A stretch of DNA of 64,000 nt from positions 124,001-188,000 of the forward strand of contig NZ_BAAADV010000001.1 in the NCBI RefSeq assembly GCF_039522665.1. Direction: 5' to 3'. Shown here one piece after another: positions 42,659 through 58,451 of this stretch (position 1 is the stretch's first letter; each line of letters opens with the position of its first letter). This DNA is from Natronoarchaeum mannanilyticum (lineage in GTDB: Archaea; Halobacteriota; Halobacteria; Halobacteriales; Natronoarchaeaceae). Under the pieces are notes generated by a model. That model was not told where the DNA came from. It did not search any database and saw nothing but the letters and a program-made list of their open reading frames with translations. The position numbers were made by a program, and so were the translations under genes.

Positions 42659-45600
42659 ATGAGCCAGGCGACGTTGCCATCGGAGCCCTACCGGAACTCG
42701 AACCTGTTCTCGGGCTACTACCTCGACGAGCGCGTCGACGACCTCGACGCGTGGGACTGCGACGACGAGGCAGCCGAGGCGTTCGAGGAACTGCGCGAGC
42801 TGTGGGATCTCGAAGGCGATCTCGTGGCATCGTACAAGGAAGACGAGCTGCTCGACAGCTGGATCGACGAGGTGCTCGACGCGCTCGGGTTCGGCACGCT
42901 CTCGGAGACGACGCTGCCGGGCGACAGCAGCGGGTACAACGACCGACTGCTGTTCGAGTCGGCCGAGCGGCGTCGCGGCGCCGCGCTGAAGAAACAGTCC
43001 GGCGACGCCGAGGCGATGTACAGCCCCGCGAGCGCGGTGCTCGAAGCCAAGCAGTGGGACGCCGACTTCACGGAGCGCTTCGACGAGCGGCGCCAGTATC
43101 GCGACGCGTCCCACCAGATCCGCTACTACCTCGAACGCACGCCCGAGGACCTTCGCTGGGGCGTCCTGACCAACGGGCGCAAGTGGCGTCTTTATGGAAC
43201 GAAGGATTACGCGACCGAGATATACTACGAGGTCGACCTGCCGGAACTGCTGGAGTCGGGGAGCCTGGAGGCGTTCAAGTACTTCTACGCCTTCTTCCGG
43301 CCCGACGCGTTCGTCGAGACCAACGGCACCTCCTTCCTCGATCGCGTGTGGTCCGAAAGCGAGACCGCAGCCAAGGAGCTCGGCGAGGACCTGCAGGACA
43401 ACGTCTTCACCGCGCTACGAGTGCTCGGCGAGGGCTTTGTCGAGACGAACGACCTCGATATCGACCCCGACGACGAGGAGTCGCTCGCGGAGCTCAAAGA
43501 GCAGTCGCTGGTGTTGCTGTACCGGCTGATGTTCGTGCTCTACGCCGAGTCCCGCGACCTGATCCACCCGGACGACCCCGCGTCGGTCGCCGAGTACGAG
43601 GAGAACTTCAGCCTCGACCAGCTCAGGCTGGATATCCACGAGGACGTCCAGGGCGGGCAGGATCTCGACGAGTACAGCGAGTACTCCACGTCGATGTGGT
43701 CGCGCCTGCAGGACCTGTTCCGGCTCGTGGATTCGGGCGAGGAGTCGCTGGGCATCCCGCCGTACAACGGCGGGCTGTTCAACCGCGAGGAACACACCTT
43801 CCTCGCCGAGCACGAGGTCGCCGACCGCTACATCGCGGAGGTGATCTACCGGCTCGGAACCACGGAGGACGAGGACGGCGCGTTCGTGCTGGCGGACTAC
43901 GCCGACCTGGACACGCGCCACCTCGGATCGATCTACGAGGGGCTGCTCGAACACGAGTTCCGCATCGCGTCCGAGCAGTACGCCGCGGTGCGCGAGGACG
44001 GCGGACAGGTCTGGAAGCCAGCCACCGAGGTCAGCGCGGCCGACTTCGTCGAGCTGGTCGAGGCGGGCGAGCTGTACGTCGTCAACGACGAGGGCGAGCG
44101 CAAGGCGACGGGCGCGTACTACACGCCCGACTACGTCGTCTCGTATATCGTCGAGGAGACGATCGACCCCCTGTTGGAGGAGATCGACGAGGACCTCCGG
44201 GCCGACGGGCTGGAGCCGAGCGACCCGGCGTACTTCGGGCGGTTCTACGGCCGCGTGCAGGATCTGACGATCCTCGATCCCGCGATGGGGTCGGGCCACT
44301 TCCTCACGAAGGCGACGGGGTATCTCACCGAGCGCGTGATGGCGGTCGTCCGCGAGGGCGAGCAGGGTCGCGACGAGCAGGCGATCCGGCGCACGATCGC
44401 GCGCGAATGCATCTACGGCGTCGACGTCAACGGGATGGCCGTCGAGCTGGCGAAGCTGTCGATGTGGCTCGAAACCCTGGCGGCCGACCAGCCCCTGGCC
44501 TTCCTCGATCACCACCTCAAGACCGGCAACTCGCTGGTGGGCTCGGACATCACGGAGGTCCTCGCGGAGGACGACGAGCCCTCGGACGGCCAGCTGACGC
44601 TCACCCAGGCGCTCGCGCACGTCCGCCAGTCCACGCTGGAGCACGTGATGGAGCTGATGCAGGACCTGCTGGCGATCGACAACGAGACGCTCTCGGACAT
44701 CAAGTCGATGGAGGAGCTGTACGACGAGATCCGGGCCGATCCGCTGTACCAGCGCCTGTTCGCACTGGCGAACGTCGACACGGCCGAGCAGTTCGGGCTG
44801 GACGTCCCCGAGGGCGCCTACGAGGAGATGGCCCGTGCGATCGAGGACGACGACGAGTGGGCCGAGATTCAGGAGCGGGACTGGTTCCGGAGTGCGCAGG
44901 CGACTGCGAAAGAGGAGGACTTCTTCCACTGGGAGATAGAGTATCCCGAGGTGTTCTTCGGGGAGGACGGGGTGAAGCTAGATGGGTCTGGGTTCGATGC
45001 AGTGGTCGGGAATCCGCCGTATGTGCGGATGGAGGAATTCAAATCGCTCAAAGGGTATCTTGAGAGCTCATACGAGGTTCACGCCGCCCGCACGGATTTA
45101 TACACGTACTTCATTGAGAAATCGATCGAACTATCGAGACAGAATGGCAAGTACGGCTCCATCATCTCGAATAAATTTCTTCGAGCAAACTACGGCAAGT
45201 CTGTTCGTTCACTACTCGGACGAGAGACGACCATTCAGCAAATCGTAGACTTCGGGGGACTCCCCGTATTTCCTGATGCGACTGTTCGCTCTGCGATTGT
45301 TTTGACCGAACAAGATGCGAAGTCGACAGACCCCGGGTACTACGCTTCGATCGAGAACCTAGAATTTGTTTCTCTTTCTGATGAGGTGGAGAAGATGGGG
45401 CACAAGGTATCTAGTGATGGTCTTAGCGGTGAGACTTGGCGTCTCGTCGATCAGAGTGTCTCGAATCTGATGGAAAAAGTCGAGGATCAAGGAAAATCCC
45501 TCGCAGAGTGGATCGAGGATGGACAAATAGGATGGGGGGTGAAGACAGGGCTCAATTCAGCGTTTATAATCAGCGAGGAACGGAAGAATGACCTCGTCGA

Positions 45601-46762
45601 CAAAGATCCGCGAACAGAGGAACTCGCGAAGCCACTCGTAAGGGGAAAGCAACTCCGTCGGTATCACATCCAGACTGGAAAGGAATGGCTTCTGTACGTT
45701 CACAGTGATGTTGATATCGATGACTATCCAGCTGTAAAAGAGCATCTCGAACAGTACAGAAGTGACCTTGAACAGCGAGCAGCTATCGACTCCTGGTATG
45801 AACTTCAGCAACCACAAGAGGCCTATGCCGAATTTATTGAATCTGATAAAATCCTCTATCCAGAGATAGCTCCTGAGGCCCGTTTCGTATTTGATGACCA
45901 ACACCGGTATCCGAACAACAAATGTTTCTTTATTCCGTCATCGAATCGTGGACTACTTGCGTTCTTGAATAGTAGTCTGTGTCTTTTTTATCTCTCGAAG
46001 ATTGTTGCGAAACTCGAAGGAAGCACGGCGGACAGCCTGTATTACGAATTCCGTACGCAGTATATGGAGCAACTTCCTGTAGTAGAATCGTTCGATGCAG
46101 ACGAACATTCACTTGGCGAGCTTGCGCAGGAAGCGACCAGACTGCGTGAGCGTTTGCATAATCTCAACCTCTCCCTCCTCGACCACCTCGGCTCCTACAC
46201 CGAGGGCCAGACCCTCTCCGAAGTCGGCCTCACCCAGCCCCCGGAGGGCTCGGCCGATTCGGTGCTCCAGCAGACGACCGAGCAGAAGCCGAACCTGCGC
46301 GTCGGCGAGGTCGTCGTGCGGCGGGAGTCCGACAGCACCGTCGAGATCAAACTCACCGCGCGGTACAAGCCCGACGACGAAGATGCGCACGAAACCGACC
46401 AGTGGGGCTACACCGAGACCGACCCCCTGCCGGCGCTGCGGATCACCGACCTCACCGAGACCGAGGCGGACCTGATCGAGGCGTTCGTGCCGGTGGCGGT
46501 CGACGAGGCCGGCGGGTTCGCGGACTTCCGCGAGACCGCCACGAAGACGAACTCGCTGGTCGATCGCCTGCGGAAGCTGACGCTGCCCCGCGTCGCGGAC
46601 GTGGAGGCCGGCCTGGAGAGCTACGTCGAGACGACGGCCCGGGCGGAGGAGTTAGAGGAGAAAATCGAGCAGACCGACGCGCTGATCGACGAAATCGTGT
46701 ACGAGCTGTACGGATTGTCGGACGACGAGATCGAGATCGTCGAGGAGGCGGTCGGAGAGTAG
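42659..46762 (+). CDS. single-chain restriction-modification enzyme (Eco57I/type IIG-like)
   Basis: 1367 residues. An N-terminal PD-(D/E)xK-like nuclease region is suggested by Asp95 and Glu129-x-Lys131 (VLEAKQWD). The adenine methyltransferase follows, with SAM motif DPAMGSGHFL (540-549) and catalytic NPPY (785-788). A TaqI-like target-recognition region (about 790-1165) and a C-terminal helical domain complete it. One protein probably both methylates and cuts a specific site, protecting against phage or plasmid DNA. The DNA for about residues 790-1165 is clearly AT-richer than the flanks, indicating a swapped specificity segment. No separate methylase or specificity gene is present. Confidence 0.9.
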   Translation: MSQATLPSEPYRNSNLFSGYYLDERVDDLDAWDCDDEAAEAFEELRELWDLEGDLVASYKEDELLDSWIDEVLDALGFGTLSETTLPGDSSGYNDRLLFESAERRRGAALKKQSGDAEAMYSPASAVLEAKQWDADFTERFDERRQYRDASHQIRYYLERTPEDLRWGVLTNGRKWRLYGTKDYATEIYYEVDLPELLESGSLEAFKYFYAFFRPDAFVETNGTSFLDRVWSESETAAKELGEDLQDNVFTALRVLGEGFVETNDLDIDPDDEESLAELKEQSLVLLYRLMFVLYAESRDLIHPDDPASVAEYEENFSLDQLRLDIHEDVQGGQDLDEYSEYSTSMWSRLQDLFRLVDSGEESLGIPPYNGGLFNREEHTFLAEHEVADRYIAEVIYRLGTTEDEDGAFVLADYADLDTRHLGSIYEGLLEHEFRIASEQYAAVREDGGQVWKPATEVSAADFVELVEAGELYVVNDEGERKATGAYYTPDYVVSYIVEETIDPLLEEIDEDLRADGLEPSDPAYFGRFYGRVQDLTILDPAMGSGHFLTKATGYLTERVMAVVREGEQGRDEQAIRRTIARECIYGVDVNGMAVELAKLSMWLETLAADQPLAFLDHHLKTGNSLVGSDITEVLAEDDEPSDGQLTLTQALAHVRQSTLEHVMELMQDLLAIDNETLSDIKSMEELYDEIRADPLYQRLFALANVDTAEQFGLDVPEGAYEEMARAIEDDDEWAEIQERDWFRSAQATAKEEDFFHWEIEYPEVFFGEDGVKLDGSGFDAVVGNPPYVRMEEFKSLKGYLESSYEVHAARTDLYTYFIEKSIELSRQNGKYGSIISNKFLRANYGKSVRSLLGRETTIQQIVDFGGLPVFPDATVRSAIVLTEQDAKSTDPGYYASIENLEFVSLSDEVEKMGHKVSSDGLSGETWRLVDQSVSNLMEKVEDQGKSLAEWIEDGQIGWGVKTGLNSAFIISEERKNDLVDKDPRTEELAKPLVRGKQLRRYHIQTGKEWLLYVHSDVDIDDYPAVKEHLEQYRSDLEQRAAIDSWYELQQPQEAYAEFIESDKILYPEIAPEARFVFDDQHRYPNNKCFFIPSSNRGLLAFLNSSLCLFYLSKIVAKLEGSTADSLYYEFRTQYMEQLPVVESFDADEHSLGELAQEATRLRERLHNLNLSLLDHLGSYTEGQTLSEVGLTQPPEGSADSVLQQTTEQKPNLRVGEVVVRRESDSTVEIKLTARYKPDDEDAHETDQWGYTETDPLPALRITDLTETEADLIEAFVPVAVDEAGGFADFRETATKTNSLVDRLRKLTLPRVADVEAGLESYVETTARAEELEEKIEQTDALIDEIVYELYGLSDDEIEIVEEAVGE
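45030..46160 (+). other. AT-rich, horizontally exchanged segment within the RM gene
   Basis: By eye G+C falls to roughly 40-50 % here, against about 65-70 % on both sides, with AT-rich codons rare elsewhere in the window (AAA, ATA, TTT). The borders coincide with the end of the NPPY motif and the start of the C-terminal helical domain. Confidence 0.75.
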
Positions 46763-46831: not shown

Positions 46832-46860
46832 TGAAAGCCCCGCCGCGCGCTCTCGAACAG
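46832..46860 (+). repeat. truncated 5' copy of the structured element
   Basis: TGAAAGCCCCGCCGCGCGCT followed by CTCGA repeats the beginning of element A, 48 bases upstream, but the conserved loop and 3' half are missing. It looks like a partial tandem duplication or a remnant. Confidence 0.5.
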
Positions 46861-46879: not shown

Positions 46880-46998
46880 GAAAGCCCCCGCCGCGCTCGA
46901 CCGGTTGCGGCTCGCTGCGCGCTTCGCTCCCTCCGGTCGCTCCAGTGCTTGCTTCGCCTCACCGGACCGAGCGCGGCGGCCCCTTTCATTCCCGCCCG
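46880..46998 (+). repeat. structured repeat element, copy A
   Basis: 119 bases. Outer pair GAAAG (46880-46884) with CTTTC (46983-46987), a symmetric CCC/CCC internal loop, then a 12-bp stem CCGCCGCGCTCG (46888-46899) with CGAGCGCGGCGG (46968-46979), extended by CCGG/CCGG. The interior has CTCGCTGCGCGCTTCG (46911-46926) and CCAGTGCTTGCTTCG (46942-46956); the tail is TTCATTCCCGCCCG. Same plan as copies B and C, but a different stem sequence. Confidence 0.75.
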
Positions 46999-47156
46999 AA
47001 ACCGCAGCCTCGTCCTCCCCAACCGGCTCACTCGGTCGCGGTGCTCCCTCGCTCGCCCCTCGCGCGGCGCTGTCTCGCCACGAGAGGCTCGACAGCGCGC
47101 GCCGATCACCCGGTATCCGCGGACAGAGCGACGATACTTCTCGGAAAGGGGAGAGA

Positions 47157-51215: not shown

Positions 51216-51242
51216 TCGGCGGCGGCTTCGCGCCACCGAGTT

Positions 51243-51410
51243 CGGCCCTCCACCCCGCTGACGCTCGGCCCACCGCTCCGCTGACGCTCGGCCCTCCGCT
51301 CCGCTGACGCTCGGCCCTCCGCTCCGCTGACGCTCGGCCCTCCGCTCCGCTGACGCTCGGCCCTCCGCTCCGCTGACGCTCAGCCCTCCGCTCCGCCGAC
51401 GCCCGACCCC
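51243..51410. repeat. tandem repeat, 23-base unit, about seven copies
   Basis: CTGACGCTCGGCCCTCCGCT plus CCG repeats with starts at 51258, 51281, 51304, 51327, 51350 and 51373, and a degenerate copy at 51396. It lies between the 3' ends of two convergent genes. The period is not a multiple of three and there are no spacers, so it is neither coding nor CRISPR. Confidence 0.85.
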
Positions 51411-51463
51411 ACACTGTCCGTCGCGGCGATGCCGCCGCGGCATCGCCCGCCGCCGGCCGCCGA

Positions 51464-57119: not shown

Positions 57120-57219
57120 CTGTGCGGTTGTTCGGCGCGCTCGCCCTTGAGGATTGCCGACTAGGAACTATCTGGTTGTCCTCTGGAACGAGAGAGTTCC
57201 GCACGGATACTACCGCCTC

Positions 57220-57335
57220 GAAAGCCCCCGCGGGCTGGACTCGGGAGGCTTGCTGCGCGCTTCCCCGCCTCCGGCGGGTCCAGTGCTTGCTGCGCCTGCC
57301 TTCGTCCAGCCCGCGGCCCCTTTCAGTCCCACCCG
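57220..57335 (+). repeat. structured repeat element, copy B
   Basis: 116 bases. GAAAG (57220-57224) pairs CTTTC (57320-57324); CCC/CCC internal loop; 13-bp perfect stem CCGCGGGCTGGAC (57228-57240) with GTCCAGCCCGCGG (57304-57316). The interior contains GCTGCGCGCTTCC (57252-57264), a small CCCGCC/GGCGGG hairpin (57264-57278) and CAGTGCTTGCTGCG (57281-57294). The tail is TTCAGTCCCACCCG. Confidence 0.78.
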
Positions 57336-57356
57336 ATGCCGGTTAACCAACTGGCG

Positions 57357-57472
57357 CGGGCGGGACTGAAAGGGGCTGCCTGCTCCGGGAAGACGGCCGA
57401 AGTAAGCACTGCACCGAACGAAGTGAGGGAAGCGCGCAGCGAGGCCATCGACCGGAGCAGGCAGGGGCTTTC
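57357..57472 (-). repeat. structured repeat element, copy C
   Basis: 116 bases on the minus strand, read from 57472 to 57357. GAAAG/CTTTC outer pair, CCC/CCC loop, 13-bp perfect stem CTGCCTGCTCCGG with CCGGAGCAGGCAG (plus-strand 57452-57464 and 57376-57388). The interior has CTCGCTGCGCGCTTCC and CAGTGCTTACTTCGG; the tail is TTCAGTCCCGCCCG. It shares loops and ends with B, but not the stem sequence. Confidence 0.78.
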
Positions 57473-57527
57473 GAGGCGGTGATATTGGAAGCTACTCTGC
57501 GGGTCCAGCTACAGTCAGAAACAACTG

Positions 57528-58451
57528 CTAGTCGGCCCACTCGAGCCCGAACCCCTCGTGGACGACGAACTCCAGGGCGTTGATCAGGTAGTGAGCCACG
57601 ATCACCGTCAGCAAACTCCCCGTCAGAACGAACGCCGCCGCGAGGACGCCGCCGAGCATCCCCGTCACGATCATCCCGCTGGGCCCCTGGATGCCGTGGC
57701 CGAAGCCAAAGGCCAGCGAGGAGGCGGCCGCGAGTACCCACGGCGAGACGCCGAAGCCAGTCGACAGCGCGCCGATCAGCGCGGCGCGAAAGAGCAGCTC
57801 CTCGAACACGGCGATGATCGGCAGCACGACCGCCAACAAGACGATCCAGCCTACGATGGAATCCGGCCCGAGCGCGCCCCTGAGCTCCTCGCTGTACTCG
57901 ACGCCGACGCGTTCGAGGTTCGCCGCGAGCAGTTCGTTGCCGGCGTACAGCGCGACGCCGAGTCCCAGCCCGACGCCGAGCGCCGGCCAGCCGACGTTGG
58001 CGGCGGCGTCGATCCCGAGCGCCGTCGCGGGGACGTCGGCGGCCCACGCCGCGACGAGCACGATCGCGCCGAGCGCGCCGTGGGTCACCGCGACGTTCGC
58101 GAGCAGGGCACCCGTCGAAAGCGATTGGAGGTCGGCGTCGGGCCGCGGGTTCCGACGGTGGTCGGACGCCGATTGCAGGTCGTCGGGATCGTTCAAGTCA
58201 TCGACTCTGTTCTTGGCCGCGTCGGCGTCGTGGCGCTCGGCGTCGACGTCGTGCCGCTCGGCACCGGCGTCGTGTCGCTCGGGGGCGGCCTCGCGCAGTT
58301 CGTCGCCGTGGTCCGGTGGGTCGGCAGTCGTCCGCGGCGACCGCTGTTCGCCCGAGCCGACGCTCGACGCCGACTGCGTGGCGCGTGCGAGTGTGAGTAC
58401 TACTGCGAGGACGGCGAGCGCGACCAGCGCGAAAGCTACCCACCGAGTCAC
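57528..58451 (-). CDS. CPBP family intramembrane glutamic protease
   Basis: 307 residues: an N-terminal membrane helix (about 5-24), a hydrophilic linker with repeated ERHDADA-like units (about 55-100) and a membrane domain with the CPBP motifs EELLFRAALIG, FGFGHGIQG and HYLINALEF. Such proteases process prenylated proteins or bacteriocin-type peptides; the substrate is unknown. All key Glu, Arg, His and Asn residues are present. Confidence 0.9.
   Translation of the reverse strand: MTRWVAFALVALAVLAVVLTLARATQSASSVGSGEQRSPRTTADPPDHGDELREAAPERHDAGAERHDVDAERHDADAAKNRVDDLNDPDDLQSASDHRRNPRPDADLQSLSTGALLANVAVTHGALGAIVLVAAWAADVPATALGIDAAANVGWPALGVGLGLGVALYAGNELLAANLERVGVEYSEELRGALGPDSIVGWIVLLAVVLPIIAVFEELLFRAALIGALSTGFGVSPWVLAAASSLAFGFGHGIQGPSGMIVTGMLGGVLAAAFVLTGSLLTVIVAHYLINALEFVVHEGFGLEWAD

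Follow-up and report, generated by a model that had tools for sequence, protein, structure and literature searches.

The SMR-A short mobile repeats of Haloquadratum walsbyi (HqIRS42, 43 and 55) are about 110 bp long, carry prominent inverted repeats without a transposase and occur in tens of copies (PMC3119063). The families are alike in shape without sequence similarity, include palindromes inserted into palindromes and were defined by strain-specific insertions (PMC3119063). The arms of the element described here share this length, the prominent inverted repeats, the absence of a transposase and the many copies, and the whole element is larger.

The locus lies in a window of 64,000 nucleotides (G000:C1:124001-188000), which is part of a 3.57 Mb assembly whose relatives are haloarchaeal. 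The original prediction proposed three copies of a structured RNA in this window, and we found all three with the motifs ascribed to them; copy A lies outside the interval 57220-57472 to which that prediction was assigned.

46880-46988, plus strand: copy A
57220-57325, plus strand: copy B
57367-57472, minus strand: copy C

As claimed for copies A, B and C, each of the stems CCGCCGCGCTCG, CCGCGGGCTGGAC (B) and CTGCCTGCTCCGG (C) finds its complement inside the copy that carries it. The further claim that the stems are unrelated from one copy to the next needs correction, as the stem of copy A is common to about 15 other copies in the G000 genome. In this genome, the anchored pattern GAAAGCCCC..CCCCTTTCA occurred 21 times compared with 0 for the reversed control, a covariance model identified 30 arms, and the long copies were about 80% identical. 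Elsewhere in the window we observed a tandem 23-bp repeat of seven units (51219-51432, about GCTCCGCTGACGCTCGGCCCTCC) and a low-G+C stretch at 44001-46000 (0.57 versus about 0.69 elsewhere) that is possibly foreign DNA.

Architecture of the element

Copies B and C form the arms of a single inverted-repeat element rather than two independent elements, and are positioned tail to tail with 41 bp between them. A hairpin of 105 nt is not the unit. The RNA fold of B+C reached -202.5 kcal/mol (z -12.3), and the DNA fold of 57150-57540, which includes more flank, had a z of -9.9. The predicted B+C fold is a four-way junction. The outer stem (P1) is formed by the strands GCCTCGAAAGCCC/GGGCTTTCGAGGC, the two arms (P2 and P4) each close on themselves, and CCCCTTTCAGTCCC pairs with GGGACTGAAAGGGG in the central stem (P3).

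57157-57536, no strand assigned: outer extent of the inverted repeat in the DNA fold, a weaker stem ending GCCGACTAG / CTAGTCGGC; ends approximate; interval absent from the congener G001
57211-57227, plus strand: P1 left strand, TACCGCCTC + GAAAGCCC, pairing with 57465-57482 in RNA and DNA folds
57228-57316, plus strand: P2, left arm (copy B), with stem 57228-57240 CCGCGGGCTGGAC pairing with 57304-57316 GTCCAGCCCGCGG and conserved inner loops between
57317-57375, plus strand: P3, central stem, CCCCTTTCAGTCCCACCC .. GGGCGGGACTGAAAGGGG, with a short loop, in RNA and DNA folds
57376-57464, minus strand: P4, right arm (copy C), with stem 57376-57388 CTGCCTGCTCCGG pairing with 57452-57464 CCGGAGCAGGCAG
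57465-57482, plus strand: P1 right strand, GGGCTTTC + GAGGCGGTGA, in RNA and DNA folds

Both arms were matched by the covariance model, P2 at G000:C1:181220-181334 (E 6.5e-21) and P4 at G000:C1:181358-181472 on the minus strand (E 1.0e-23). The GAAAG of B or C has two pairing options, either across the whole element or inside its own half. Because each can pair either way, the symmetric CCC/CCC internal loop of the original prediction does appear when the halves are folded alone, but its C's are paired in the B+C fold; where other genomes carry copies with a single arm, the CCC/CCC loop may be genuine. The outer hexamers were complementary at 0.667 inside loci versus 0.435 for swapped loci (0/300). 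Among 108 element loci in other genomes, the arms were oriented '+-' in 31 cases and '-+' in one, and 26 plus motifs in other genomes had an inverted partner 25-37 nt away. The element has a short form with a core of about 265 bp and a long form of about 450 bp.

The long form runs from a left arm through a structured middle of about 190 nt to a right arm that belongs to a second class, with TATCC..GGATA. Copy A represents a truncated element of this form; just upstream of it, the start of the arm is partly repeated as an outer copy, an arrangement that also precedes several other copies.

46833-46852, plus strand: partial outer copy of the arm start, GAAAGCCCCGCCGCGCGCTC
46880-47103, plus strand: truncated long-form element, comprising the left arm (46880-46988) and part of the middle

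The second arm class, GACATATCC..GGATAGGGGTCGCTGAGACGAC inside the same GAAAGCCC/CCCCTTTCA ends, was seen in L069, L078, L085, L088, L116, L133 and L176 and forms the right arm of the long form. Arm-less forms GAAAGCCCCCGGCCCCTTTCAGTCC were observed at L163, L167, L135, L161 and L117, with the partner arm still present in some. Some arms contain nested double palindromes, in which two hairpins of about 20 nt are joined by TGATGA or TCATCA; examples are positions 250-540 of L051 (G000:C1:716900-717500) and loci L094, L097, L128, L153, L158 and L164. The stems of these nested palindromes vary yet stay complementary. The palindromes recur near fixed places in the arm, e.g., after GCAGCGAG, and differ between orthologues that are 91-95% identical.

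Covariation in the arms

Alignments showed that each arm has a variable stem of 12-13 bp followed by a second stem, in which a purine mismatch recurs, an asymmetric loop that is conserved as TCGCT / KTC, and an inner short stem with a TT bulge, whose pairs swap from C-G to G-C and from C-G to T-A, below a variable tip. The unpaired loop bases, the purine mismatch and the TT bulge are conserved across genera. Across 45 diverse haloarchaeal arms, 94.7% of cells were paired compared with 77.5 +/- 0.7 in shuffled alignments, the covariation score was 0.412 against 0.119 +/- 0.009 shuffled and at most 0.068 for slid partners, and double changes occurred at 19 of 30 pairs. The same analysis of 140 arms gave 93.2% paired cells, double changes at 24 of 30 pairs and a score of 0.403 versus 0.116 shuffled. 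Arms were picked by their conserved ends, and the GAAAG/CTTTC pairs are therefore uninformative on covariation; A3 was fitted to the structure and A2 was not, and it is the variable helices of A2 that carry the result. Covariation in the arms is thus far above chance and order-wide, and the original prediction of conserved loops with compensating stems was upheld in both arm sets. Within genomes, homogenisation of the stems was weak (identity 0.638 versus 0.605; 18/500 shuffles); gene conversion is therefore not the principal cause. Covariation alone does not discriminate between RNA and folded DNA.

Distribution

Of 117 genomes in the order, 97 gave a covariance-model match to the arm; these represent 39 of 45 genera and often carry 20 to at least 31 arms, and no arm was detected in the other 20. 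A search of haloarchaeal genomes with such a model had been suggested with the original prediction, and covariation held against shuffles and slides. G001, of the same genus, had 5 model matches versus 30 in G000, reflecting lineage-specific expansion or loss. Using one long copy as a blastn query, we obtained matches in 32 of 59 relatives, and an exact 20-base pattern returned at least 120 stretches, the records being haloarchaeal by name among the matches listed. The element is also present on 12 plasmids; phage records gave no match to it, and no IMG/VR contig contained the exact pattern.

The family had not been recognised originally, and no Rfam 15 family covers the element at the gathering score, the sole results being a chance sub-threshold mir-4433 and an unrelated tRNA; nor did it match a known transposon end. 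Literature searches by words and by sequence string returned a Haloquadratum paper (PMC3119063) as the nearest, and none carrying the sequence of the element. The arms thus constitute a common, dispersed haloarchaeal family that apparently lacks a prior description.

History of the loci

Alignment with long-gap scoring showed about 40 bp at the B/C site of G001 where the window has 372. Other G001 loci keep remnants: an arm-less GGAA..CCCCGTTCAGTCCCACCC persists at the L016 site, whereas L011 has retained just the right end and L014 just the right arm. Because of this, loss and original absence are indistinguishable at the B/C site. The comparison with G001 revealed no new insertion, and several G001 sites hold what deletion left of an ancestral copy that was shared. 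The position of copy A is shared with G003 and G005, which belong to another genus. Element positions are also shared between genera at L062, L093 and L141, in a gap between apparent cobalamin genes, and at L064/L123 and L076/L087. The loops are intact at these old cross-genus loci, which past mobility alone leaves unexplained.

RNA or DNA as the folded molecule

Retention of loops at old shared loci, together with covariation around conserved loops, is consistent with a structured RNA family that is expressed at dispersed loci and functions as RNA, e.g., by protein binding. The strand on which such an RNA was originally proposed does not show the expected wobbles. Read on the plus strand, the outer stems of 77 arms contained 935 Watson-Crick cells, 3 G.T and 13 A.C, and the best 90 model-aligned arms contained 70 A.C versus 22 G.T despite the model favouring G.T; neither set showed enrichment of G.U over A.C on this strand. 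The opposite strand is therefore likelier, if one strand is used. There, the A.C excess reads as G.U and the wobble direction fits RNA, few columns being dominant: three supply much of the A.C excess in the best 90 arms. The minus strand was also more stable as RNA in 77 of 102 arms, by a mean of 2.8 kcal/mol, and in its conserved inner loop, GAM / AGCGA, a tandem G-A lies beside a stem. Tandem G-A next to a stem is found in kink-turns, but the complement-strand loop has one nucleotide more than the standard kink-turn.

Nevertheless, wobbles are scarce on both strands, with G.U at 5.4% (plus) and 3.5% (minus) in arms folded as RNA versus 8.6% in the SRP RNA of the same genome. Gene contexts of the elements, with genes called by a simple acidic-ORF caller, matched the background of gaps and showed no strand preference relative to genes, and we rejected a terminator or cis-regulatory role on these grounds; copies in four annotated plasmid regions were intergenic. 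Further arguments against an RNA family are the dozens of copies, the decay of copies and outright loss of arms in relatives, the nearly always tail-to-tail pairing, the nested palindromes and the flipping of the interior described below. The RNA family of the original prediction is thus unsupported, and we consider an RNA role, more probably from the opposite strand, unlikely. The specific case of a huge undescribed archaeal RNA family on the complement strand, with a kink-turn-like loop bound by an L7Ae-type protein and dozens of copies order-wide, appears quite improbable.

Loci L154 and L183 have flanks that are about 91% alike and largely different stems (CCGCCCGCTCGAC against CCGGGCGCTACGG); the L183 stem is complementary and the L154 stem has two mismatches. 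Such fast, in-step change of stems with few wobble intermediates would suit old functionless palindromes kept complementary only by templated mutation, i.e., template switching or hairpin repair between arms. However, this correction would erase mismatches and leave loops unpreserved, and the cross-genus conservation of the loop bases, purine mismatch and TT bulge makes the explanation distinctly unlikely.

Comparison of G000:C4:304451-304711 with G001:C1:679183-679452 showed that the interior of the element (central loop and arm type) is inverted between these congeners. Synteny breaks were present at 4 of 12 element loci versus 18 of 175 control points, a suggestive coincidence in small numbers. 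The G000 loci L013, L015, L020 and L023 sit at synteny breaks with G001, where the left flank of L020 and the right flank of L023 adjoin (C1:819312-819328). A role for the element as a site used by the host chromosome, for instance a cruciform that serves recombination, replication or the organisation of the chromosome, would accommodate the four-way junction fold, the flipped interior, the breaks and the positions shared between genera, but is very improbable given that related genomes carry from 0 to more than 30 copies (none detected in 20 of 117), that loci decay freely and that the few breaks equally fit ordinary recombination between repeats.

A probable non-autonomous palindromic element

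With somewhat better than even confidence, we favour a dispersed, non-coding, quasi-palindromic and non-autonomous haloarchaeal DNA element that is recognised, when folded, by an enzyme acting in trans. That unpaired bases are conserved argues that the folded form is what is recognised. Pairing is strict, stems change fast and in a coupled manner, and arms are lost or flipped, all of which argues that the folded molecule is DNA and not RNA. The many copies, which are indifferent to their gene context and decay freely, argue for a selfish rather than a host function. These three arguments together therefore suggest a non-autonomous palindromic element.

Most likely, it spreads now, or did so formerly, as a non-autonomous element that is recognised as a single-stranded hairpin or cruciform. 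A putative enzyme supplied in trans would use the conserved unpaired bases as recognition points, and stem sequence may drift so long as pairing holds. The arms would be kept complementary by the folding requirement, probably also by hairpin-templated repair or replication, and the element is perhaps largely old. The homogenisation of hairpin arms, raised as the main alternative in the original prediction, may therefore play a part.

Inspection of the flanks revealed neither sharp ends nor target duplications, and DDE-type ends with target duplication were rejected on this basis. An autonomous version was rejected since no gene was present between arms in 8-kb loci. A Y1/RAYT partner showed no association, as 15 of 32 genomes with at least 20 arms had no Y1 transposase (PF01797); it is not a required partner at present, and its presence in the past is possible.

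If this reading is correct, one folded element that is uncatalogued in Rfam, and without a name as far as the searchable literature shows, fills intergenic DNA of most haloarchaeal genomes. It would offer hundreds of natural covariation experiments on one fold, a test case for selection versus hairpin-templated mutation, and possibly a candidate agent of archaeal genome rearrangement.

Comparison with known systems

REP, BIME and REPIN sequences, with their RAYT (Y1) enzymes, share with the element intergenic palindromes, inverted pairs, many copies and presumed mobilisation in trans, but their arms are 20-40 nt rather than about 110 nt (PMC2817692, PMC3116915). The inverted palindrome pairs of REP/REPIN are matched by the strong '+-' excess of the element; the GTAG-type tag known there has no known counterpart in it, and Y1 association is absent. 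PATEs and IS605-type ends of haloarchaea are likewise structured palindromes struck by nested palindromes, but PATEs have no terminal inverted repeats (PMC3119063), which the element has as its outer stem P1. MITEs are, like the element, short, non-coding and multicopy with terminal inverted repeats, whereas neither target duplication nor a parent transposon was seen for the element in a non-exhaustive inspection of flanks and 8-kb loci. At integron attC sites the fold matters, and the arms vary but remain complementary while unpaired bases are conserved. The element resembles them in all three respects, by analogy only, and its interior is much larger.

The nested palindromes in the arms recall those of Haloquadratum, whereas the SMR-A description includes no four-way junction, long form or conserved loops (PMC3119063). 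Comparing by description rather than by sequence, we favour the Haloquadratum short mobile repeats as the known elements closest in kind.
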